Source: Halostagnicola kamekurae (lineage in GTDB: Archaea; Halobacteriota; Halobacteria; Halobacteriales; Natrialbaceae). From it: DNA of 64,000 bases. Under the pieces are notes generated by a model. That model worked only from the letters and a program-made list of their open reading frames with translations, was not told the origin of the DNA and did not search any database. Location of the stretch: positions 1 to 64,000 of the forward strand of contig NZ_FOZS01000004.1 of the NCBI RefSeq assembly GCF_900116205.1. Reading direction: 5' to 3'. Shown here piece after piece: positions 33,104 to 35,907 of the stretch (within the stretch, counting starts at the first letter, position 1; each line of letters opens with the position of its first letter). The translations under genes and the position numbers were made by a program.

Positions 33104-34117
33104 TCAGTCGCTTTCGCCGTTTTTCCCGCCCGAATCGGGGTGGGACTGGGGCTCAAGATTCGATGTCGTATCACGGTGCGGCGTGTCGCTCGGTGTGTCC
33201 GTCCGTGTATTCATCGCCTGATTTTGATCCGTACTGGCTCCAGAGTCGTCTGAATTTTTTTCCCTCCCGAGAGCCGATCGAAGCCGATTCTCGTAGGCTT
33301 CGAGGTCGATACCGAAGTCCTCCTCGAGCGACCATCGGCCGACGAATCGATCTGCGGCTTTGACCGTGACGATAGCCAGAATGATTCCGAAAACGACGTC
33401 GATGGCCCAGTGCATACCGAGGTACATCGTCGAGACCGCGACGCTCACTGCCAGCGGAACCGAGACGAGAAACCAGATCGGATAGGACTCTCTCGTTCGG
33501 TACGCGAACAAGGCGATGGTCGCAGAGAGAGACGTGTGCAACGACGGAAAGACGTTCGTCTTGTGGTTGACCTCGCTAGTGAGTGTCATATACTGCGGAT
33601 TGAATTGATACAAGGCAGTTCCGATGGCATCCGGCATGAGGTTTCGTGGTCCGTAGGCCAAGACGAACAAGTAGAGGATCAACCCGAGAACGTAGTTGAG
33701 CGCGTACGCGGACAACAGTTCCCTGAACGGTCGCGTATCCGAGAGCGCGAAGTACGCGATCACCGGGAATATCAGCATAAACGCATAGCCGTAGATATAG
33801 ACGAACGAAAGGTACTGTGTGAGCGCTGGCGTCGCGAACGACTGGAACCAAAGGACAGTCTCCCCCTCGATGTTGTAAAAAAGCGGGGTCAAGTTCCAGT
33901 CGATCGCCCGCGAGAGGGGCGGGATCCGCGGTCGCGCGATCCGATTGAGCAGTAACACAGCGATAACGATGACAACCACGGGTGCTGACTGGCGCAATCT
34001 ATCCGGCCACTCTCGGCGGGTTCGTCGAAGGCGCTCGCGACCGACGCAGACGGTGGTAAAGACGGCGAGCATGAGCGAAACCACGATCAATACCTGAGCG
34101 ACAAGTTCGGCGAGCAC
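33104..34117 (-). CDS. PAP2-superfamily membrane enzyme (inositolphosphotransferase/phosphatase-like)
   Basis: A 337-residue membrane protein with about eight helices and a soluble polar tail of some 65 residues. NVFPSLHTSLSATIALFAYR (188-207) and STMYLGMHWAIDVVFGIILA (229-248) are the second and third PAP2 motifs; His194, His236 and Asp240 would form the catalytic set. The spacing and helices resemble the AUR1/inositolphosphorylceramide-synthase branch more than soluble phosphatases, so the reaction could be transfer of a phosphoryl-head group on lipids. The substrate is unknown. It begins two bases after the stop of the permuted binding-protein gene, so the two form an operon. Confidence 0.8.
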   Translation of the reverse strand: MLAELVAQVLIVVSLMLAVFTTVCVGRERLRRTRREWPDRLRQSAPVVVIVIAVLLLNRIARPRIPPLSRAIDWNLTPLFYNIEGETVLWFQSFATPALTQYLSFVYIYGYAFMLIFPVIAYFALSDTRPFRELLSAYALNYVLGLILYLFVLAYGPRNLMPDAIGTALYQFNPQYMTLTSEVNHKTNVFPSLHTSLSATIALFAYRTRESYPIWFLVSVPLAVSVAVSTMYLGMHWAIDVVFGIILAIVTVKAADRFVGRWSLEEDFGIDLEAYENRLRSALGREKNSDDSGASTDQNQAMNTRTDTPSDTPHRDTTSNLEPQSHPDSGGKNGESD

Positions 34118-34119
34118 GG

Positions 34120-35907
34120 CTATCTCACCAGGCGTTCGCGGTCGTCGCTGTACTGAAAGCCATAGCCTTCGAAGGCTCGTTTTGCCTGTTCGACATCGAG
34201 TGTATCCGATCCTTCGGACCTTGTTTCATCACTCTTGCGGAAAAAGGGCGCGTAGGGCGCGGTTCCGTCCCACTCGAGTTCCTTGGGTGTCCACTCGTCC
34301 GTAACCGGAGTGACGATCGGTGTGGCGTATCCGCCAAACACGTCAGAAACGATCATCTCCCGGTCGATCAAACCTGCAACGACTTTCCGGAAGTTCGGAT
34401 TGCTGAAGGGGGCATTCCGGACGTTGAACCCGATGTGATAGAACTGCCACGACTGCGGTTCGACGAGCTCGAGGGCGTCGTCGGTGATCTCGCCGATCTC
34501 AGAGATTGCCATCGGCATCGCCGTCATATCCCTGGGTTGGGTTGCGCTTTCACCACTGAGGCCCCTCAGGACTAGCCCGCTGTTGAGTGCTACTTCGAAA
34601 CGGATCTCGTCGGCGGACGGCTCCGGGAAATCGACGGTATCGCGGGTCGTGAAGTGTCGGTCAAACCGCTCGAGTCGGAGCCGCTCGCGCTGTTCCCGTT
34701 CGACGAAGGCATACGGGCCGCTACCAATCGTTGAGATTCCATCCTCACTCACTATACTCCAGGTGCCCTGAATGGGGTTTTGACCGTTCTCGAGGCGCGT
34801 CTCGACTTCAGGCTTCCAGACGTGTCTCGGAAGGATCGGGATCGTGAGCGCGCGTTCTGCGACATCGGCGTGTGCATCGACTTCGATCTCGACGGTCTGT
34901 CCGTCGAGGACGCTGGTGCTCTCGACGATGTCGATCAGTCCGCGATGTCTGGGTGCCGGCGATCGAACACCCTGTTCGTCTCCGAGCGATGTGTCCGCAA
35001 AGAATTCGTAGGTGAACTCGATATCCTGTGAGGTGACCGGTTGTCCGTCGTGAAACTGACAGTCAGGCCGGATAGTGACGGTCGCGGTCGATTCGTCCCA
35101 CTCCCACGATTCGGCGAGCCACGGACGGAACGACCCCCCGTTCGGAACCGCCAGCGAATCGTACAGCAGATCGATTATCGTCCCCTGATCGCGTTGGGTT
35201 GCAGCGAGCGGGTTGAGATTCCGCGTCGGTCGGGTATCAGTGATAATCCCCCGCAGGATTACGTCCTCTCCATCGTCCCATTCGTGTTCGATCGGCTCGA
35301 GTCCGAGATAGCCCAGTTTCCGGCCGAGCGGGTGCTCACTCCAACCGTCGAATCGATCGGTTCTGACGACTCTGCGGTCGTCTGTCCGGCAGATCGGAAC
35401 AATCGGGTGGGCCTGTGCGATCCGGGTGAGGAGGTCGGTGATCGCCTCCGTTCGTTCGTCGCCGTCCATCGAACGCTGTCGTTCGAGCAAGTCGTCGACT
35501 TCGAGGTTCGTAAACCCGTAGGGGTTTTGCCAACCCGCTTCCGGATCGTACGTCGAGTGGAATAGTTCGTACAGATAGTCCGGATCTGAACCACCGTGTC
35601 GGCTGGCGACAAAACAATCGAAGTCGTGCTCGAGTAAGACTGCGCGGAGCAGTTGGGATCGAGATCGCGGTTCGATCGTGGCATTGATCCCGACCGCACT
35701 GAGGTTTTTTTCGAAGGTGCGAGCAATCTGACTGCTCCGCCGATCGTTATCCGCCGGCAGCGTGAGAATCGTTACGGACATCTGCTCGGGCGAATCGTTC
35801 GTGAGTACTCGGCGTATCGCAGTGCCGCCGACTGCACCGGCTACCACACCCCCACCGGCGATCAGCGCCGAACGTCTGCTTACCCGTTTATCCAGTTTAT
35901 CGGACAT
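34120..35907 (-). CDS. Family-5 solute-binding protein with circularly permuted domain order
   Basis: A 595-residue exported protein. Residues 8-31 form a Tat signal (SRRSALIAGGGVVAGAVGGT) without a lipobox Cys. Residues 44-205 correspond to what is normally the C-terminal third of peptide/nickel binding proteins: VTILTL, ARTFEKNLSAVGINATIEP, FVASRHGGSDPDYLYELFHS, YGFTNLEVDDLLERQRSMD. Residues about 215-490 then give the normal N-terminal lobe (RNLNPLAATQRDQGTIIDLL, RPWLAESWEW, CQFHDGQPVTSQDIEFTYEF). The end, FNVRNAPFSNPNFRKVVAGL up to EQAKRAFEGYGFQYSDDR, is where a standard protein would continue into VTILTL. It is co-transcribed with a PAP2 enzyme and has no permease or ATPase beside it. 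Ligand unknown. Confidence 0.85.
   Translation of the reverse strand: MSDKLDKRVSRRSALIAGGGVVAGAVGGTAIRRVLTNDSPEQMSVTILTLPADNDRRSSQIARTFEKNLSAVGINATIEPRSRSQLLRAVLLEHDFDCFVASRHGGSDPDYLYELFHSTYDPEAGWQNPYGFTNLEVDDLLERQRSMDGDERTEAITDLLTRIAQAHPIVPICRTDDRRVVRTDRFDGWSEHPLGRKLGYLGLEPIEHEWDDGEDVILRGIITDTRPTRNLNPLAATQRDQGTIIDLLYDSLAVPNGGSFRPWLAESWEWDESTATVTIRPDCQFHDGQPVTSQDIEFTYEFFADTSLGDEQGVRSPAPRHRGLIDIVESTSVLDGQTVEIEVDAHADVAERALTIPILPRHVWKPEVETRLENGQNPIQGTWSIVSEDGISTIGSGPYAFVEREQRERLRLERFDRHFTTRDTVDFPEPSADEIRFEVALNSGLVLRGLSGESATQPRDMTAMPMAISEIGEITDDALELVEPQSWQFYHIGFNVRNAPFSNPNFRKVVAGLIDREMIVSDVFGGYATPIVTPVTDEWTPKELEWDGTAPYAPFFRKSDETRSEGSDTLDVEQAKRAFEGYGFQYSDDRERLVR

Follow-up and report, generated by a model that had tools for sequence, protein, structure and literature searches.

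Circularly permuted family-5 solute-binding proteins of haloarchaea and bacteria, with the order of their halves probably exchanged several times and in place

Here we describe a family-5 solute-binding protein (SBP) in which the two halves of the standard chain have exchanged places. The gene lies in a window of 64,000 nucleotides from Halostagnicola kamekurae, the window being the whole stretch of DNA that was analyzed. Judging from sequence and a predicted structure, its product is very probably an exported, two-lobed and working binding protein, and one of a family in which the permutation took place several times, in place. The coordinates given in the original prediction, which first described the permutation, are correct, and the strand, which it did not give, is minus. 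The features are as follows.

34120 to 35907, minus strand: permuted family-5 solute-binding protein gene, 595 amino acids plus stop, with an ATG start and no internal stop.
35797 to 35907, minus strand: residues 1–37, a twin-arginine-type signal (RRSALIAGGG) without a lipobox cysteine, from the sequence; pLDDT is below 50.
35293 to 35778, minus strand: residues 44–205, the C-terminal block of standard family-5 proteins (LxI strand, DPD, evD.Ll), here placed first, from profile and structure alignments.
35260 to 35292, minus strand: residues 206–216, a new linker from the old C-terminus to the old N-terminus, lying between two profile matches and predicted to be well ordered.
34123 to 35259, minus strand: residues 217–595, the N-terminal block of standard proteins, from Pfam, profiles and the model; it ends with an A..LL..AGY-type helix (residues 572–581) and one hairpin strand, as placed by the model and profiles.
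33104 to 34117, minus strand: PAP2_3-family membrane protein of 337 amino acids, directly downstream (Pfam PF14378, 1.9e-17, and PF01569).

The window protein scores 151.1 bits against PF00496 (SBP_bac_5), for which the curated cut-off is 32.4. The Pfam match covers residues 260–591, corresponding to profile positions 2 to 285 out of 368, and the end of the profile (positions 288–363) matches upstream, at residues ~44–118 (genome positions 35554–35778). The collinear order of N-lobe and then C-terminal block is not found, which makes this a permuted rather than a standard member of SBP_bac_5. The displaced segment comprises the final ~160 residues of the standard-type chain, which now stand immediately behind the twin-arginine signal. 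A single-sequence alignment to 5u4o places residues 58–193 on 375–509, residues 228–312 on 54–141 and residues 393–536 on 198–330, and a 23-member profile of its clade aligned to Bacillus AppA (1xoc) places 236–533 on 38–312 and 43–198 on 352–503. Half-profiles of the window clade also match E. coli DppA, with the moved block at 386–515 and the other block at 60–334, and at the level of sequence these matches lie far beyond chance. The original prediction had taken residues 44–205 for the moved C-terminal block, as the DppA and AppA alignments now confirm. All alignment and profile tests likewise agree with its claim of a clean circular permutation, that is, two segments from one parent, each present in one copy, with their order exchanged. 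No second full C-terminal block follows residue 595, and the PAP2-family gene begins at 34117, 3 bases past the stop. Because none of the solved structures listed in searches with the window protein and its relatives was matched across the swapped junction, we are aware of no solved permuted member.

An AlphaFold2 model of the window protein, built with 23 relatives, is a confident single predicted fold in which residues 44–205 are well ordered (mean pLDDT 82.8, pTM 0.82), with values below 50 only in the signal region and a few loops. The modeled chain starts at a strand (residues 44–49) and stops just after the helix at 572–581, which puts the cut into the hairpin behind the helix that carries A..LL..AGY in standard proteins. 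As originally predicted, the break is at a single loop, but it does not directly follow the PF.N...R block. The PDB matches listed by Foldseek are all family-5 binding proteins, with ~250–430 columns and target-normalized TM-scores of 0.31–0.51 from a sequential, order-dependent aligner. Such partial coverage is expected, since a sequential aligner sees one of the two swapped parts, and does not prove a complete fold. For L052, a recent permutant, the AlphaFold model was poor (pLDDT 54.7), probably through a shallow alignment, and was left unused.

The permutation is no isolated oddity: it is an old and widespread arrangement with many members, invented repeatedly and common in haloarchaea. 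This genome alone encodes six family-5 proteins, four of them permuted (the window protein, L002, L004 and L005) and two in standard order (L001 and L003). Across 287 loci, 272 family-5 ORFs were classified by half-profile order and separately by geometry, with agreement in 267, giving 193 permuted and 79 standard proteins. In 25 haloarchaeal genomes, where most but not all matches were covered, 30 of the 94 inspected proteins are permuted. Most of the 61 Natrialbaceae genomes that were searched carry a full- or near-full-length orthologue of the window protein with its length and block order. The Salinigranum rubrum orthologue (L297:2911-4705) carries a frame change and is annotated as two CDS, and its adjoining PAP2 gene is intact. 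With respect to haloarchaeal lipoprotein signals, L009, a Halostagnicola relative, resembles the window protein in having the twin arginine and in having lost the lipobox cysteine; most relatives have a lipobox, including nearly all haloarchaeal ones.

The permuted order also extends to bacteria, where a scan that used three permuted proteins from bacteria yielded 69 loci. Named bacterial relatives come from many Alphaproteobacteria and from Trueperaceae, Thermomicrobiales, ANGP1 and Armatimonadetes assemblies, and one permuted clade joins haloarchaea with Alphaproteobacteria, Trueperaceae and Thermomicrobiales. Bacterial and several haloarchaeal permuted members head complete permease-permease-ATPase-ATPase operons; permease and ATPase neighbors are present for the L002, L004, L240, L246 and L267 types as well as for the bacterial relatives. 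Three bacterial permuted SBPs (L038, L039 and L040) head dpp-type operons near genes for a hydantoinase/oxoprolinase, M20/M28 peptidases and an IclR-type regulator, and these neighbors suggest cyclic imides, oxoproline or amino-acid derivatives as substrates.

The order demonstrably changed in place in two cases, each a pair of orthologous dppABCDF operons with collinear flanks in which only the binding-protein gene differs in order. In the first, permuted L052 groups with standard L067 as its sister (100/99), and their halves are 73% and 73% identical and their signal peptides 82% identical. The operon DNA of this pair is collinear, at 75% identity upstream, 76% across the start and signal peptide and 73.7% in a 4.07-kb stretch of permease and ATPase genes, and between these flanks the two binding-protein segments are crossed over. 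In the second pair, permuted L267 and standard L253, the parts are 53% and 48% identical, and the downstream operon is 74.8% identical over 4.4 kb.

In the permuted chain, the old N- and C-termini, both on the N-lobe side, would be joined by the short linker, and the new chain ends would lie at a hairpin of the second lobe (old domain III), from which the signal or membrane anchor would now hang. The protein is expected to fold, form its cleft and capture ligand as standard ones do, given the confident model, the conservation across phyla and the position of most permuted relatives at the head of a normal dppABCDF operon. The permutation happened inside existing operons and retained the signal peptide, the promoter side and the permeases downstream. 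Because neither the signal peptide nor either operon flank moves, two routes would work and are the likely ones: a tandem gene duplication and fusion may have been followed by deletion of the outer halves, or the C-terminal segment may have been copied into the low-complexity linker behind the signal peptide, with truncation afterwards. In L052 and L067 this linker is repetitive (GNGNGG-type) and may ease such rearrangement. Permutation by duplication predicts fused tandem copies, and in another lineage a 1292-aa ORF (L266:1511-5389) holds two complete standard-order family-5 SBPs head to tail (N-C-N-C), which shows that the first step, duplication with fusion, happens. Three-block intermediates (C-N-C, or N-C-N with truncation) were looked for among the loci examined and none was found. 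Duplication followed by loss, which the original prediction had proposed, is a plausible route as a whole. The simplest reading of the permutation itself is a structurally tolerated, near-neutral change.

A further, rather tentative reading is that order switching is recurrent and possibly reversible, with in-place flips between standard and permuted states, so that L067 could be a return from a permuted ancestor. Gene fission with later re-fusion of the halves in the opposite order seems unlikely. Traces that could fit such a path are a lone C-terminal-block ORF of ~200 aa (L299:3198-3800) and a permuted gene with its two blocks in overlapping different frames, either a frameshift or a genuine split (L298:2859-4596). 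However, the former looks like a remnant and the latter like a frameshift, none of the sampled genomes has two intact separate half-genes, and the signal peptide stays in front when L052 is compared with L067.

It is similarly improbable that the permutation serves membrane tethering, a purpose suggested by the authors who described the permuted Treponema binding protein TpMglB-2 (PMC4990184). A lipobox is indeed present in 119 of 123 haloarchaeal permuted proteins, but it is as frequent in the standard haloarchaeal proteins (71 of 75), and 67 of 70 bacterial permuted proteins have none, like the window protein and its closest relative. The lipobox counts in permuted versus standard proteins therefore do not support tethering as the purpose.

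Phylogenies point to a change of order that arose repeatedly. A joint tree of 70 proteins, built from re-aligned halves, needs seven order changes, and its starred branches force seven; the single-half trees need eight and nine, with six forced by starred branches in each. We count about six changes rather than seven, since the seventh needs the pairing of L043 and L049, which a denser tree of the L004 family does not support; Halocatena L043 is a standard-order relative of L004 and not permuted. Constraining all permuted proteins to one clade was rejected (AU p=2.6e-6). Separate placements are taken by a large clade (the window protein, L002 and bacteria), the L004 family, L246/L247/L258, L267 and L240. 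The break points differ as well. In the large clade and the L004 family the cut falls in the hairpin behind the A..LL..AGY helix, whereas L246/L247/L258 and L267 are cut ~30–45 residues earlier, before this helix, a position that L240 probably shares, so that cuts have fallen in two neighboring loops, more than once in each. The L004 family contains 20 permuted proteins alongside 11 close relatives in standard order, and monophyly of its permuted members was rejected (p=5.9e-5, and 6.2e-5 in a second test). With L052 set as its own event, the remaining permutants of this family are compatible with one origin (p=0.137), and a reversion at L067 fits these data as well. A weakly supported tree of the neighboring DppB permease calls for five changes.

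A single ancient permutation, with the standard-order proteins among the permuted ones as reversions, is harder still to accept. Gain and loss are not distinguishable by the trees, and the fewest-change tree of the L004 family (two changes) can be read as one gain plus a reversal at L067. However, the differently cut permutants (L246/L247/L258, L267 and L240) adjoin standard relatives far from the main clade, a single origin would need one reversal per nested case, each back to the exact standard order, and E. coli and most family-5 proteins have the standard arrangement. Almost certainly wrong are the readings of residues 44–205 as an unrelated domain fused to a truncated SBP, or of the order as an assembly artefact: we found no support for either, the block profiles find the C-terminal part of DppA and AppA, and the same order recurs in >100 independent genomes or records, on which grounds both were rejected.

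The window clade has a genetic context of its own. All its sampled members have a PAP2-family membrane protein directly downstream, and some carry tandem SBP-PAP2-SBP-PAP2 arrays (L042). The permuted SBP and the PAP2_3 protein form a conserved two-gene unit without an ABC permease, which in the window spans 33104–35907. No permease genes lie near the window gene or in the annotated neighborhoods of clade members, and the adjacent permease and ATPase genes of a Dpp-type importer are found for neither. On visual inspection, PSLH and HW..D motifs of the kind typical for its family are retained in the PAP2 protein. Our best guess from this gene order, held with low confidence, is that the window SBP is partnered with a lipid-phosphate enzyme rather than with an adjacent ABC importer. 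Outside the cytoplasm it may bind a phosphorylated compound or a lipid head-group for processing by the PAP2 protein, again as a best guess from gene order.

Most work on circular permutation concerns engineered proteins, or natural pairs that are ancient and have diverged strongly. In family 5 there are many naturally permuted members, several separate events at a pair of neighboring loops and at least two operon pairs that differ only in order, and with these the genetic route, the folding cost and the effect of a moved membrane anchor become directly testable. This turns the family into an unusually clean natural experiment on the evolution of circular permutation. There is a practical side as well, in that collinear profiles such as PF00496 report permuted proteins as truncated and order-dependent structure searches catch only part of them.

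Searches of one open-access library turned up no account of family-5 binding proteins in permuted order, which does not by itself prove novelty. The standard proteins DppA, OppA, NikA, GsiB and AppA (SBP_bac_5, cluster C) are homologous to the permuted ones end to end in both halves, are exported and of similar length, and head the same type of permease-ATPase operon as most permuted relatives. Unlike them, the permuted proteins have their halves reversed and new termini in old domain III, and the window clade has a PAP2 protein beside the SBP rather than permease genes. The nearest precedent is from a different cluster. TpMglB-2 (Tp0684) of Treponema pallidum, called 'Type Ic / Cluster Bc', is a natural circular permutant among the binding proteins of ABC transporters and retains both ligand binding and closure on the ligand (PMC4990184). 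It has the cluster B (MglB) fold, its last ~70–100 residues are the old N-terminus, with poor sequence similarity, and the available part of its report mentions neither a near-identical standard sister nor a repeated origin (PMC4990184). The window protein does not share this cluster-B sugar-binding fold, as all its listed sequence and fold matches belong to family 5, cluster C. General routes of circular permutation have been reviewed (PMC3320104). In saposin/swaposin and the DNA methyltransferases the order change is likewise explained by duplication, fusion and truncation, and repeated permutation within one family is known for the methyltransferases (PMC3320104). Unlike in those families, the change in the SBPs is seen in place, in orthologous operons at ~73% identity and in a transporter family.
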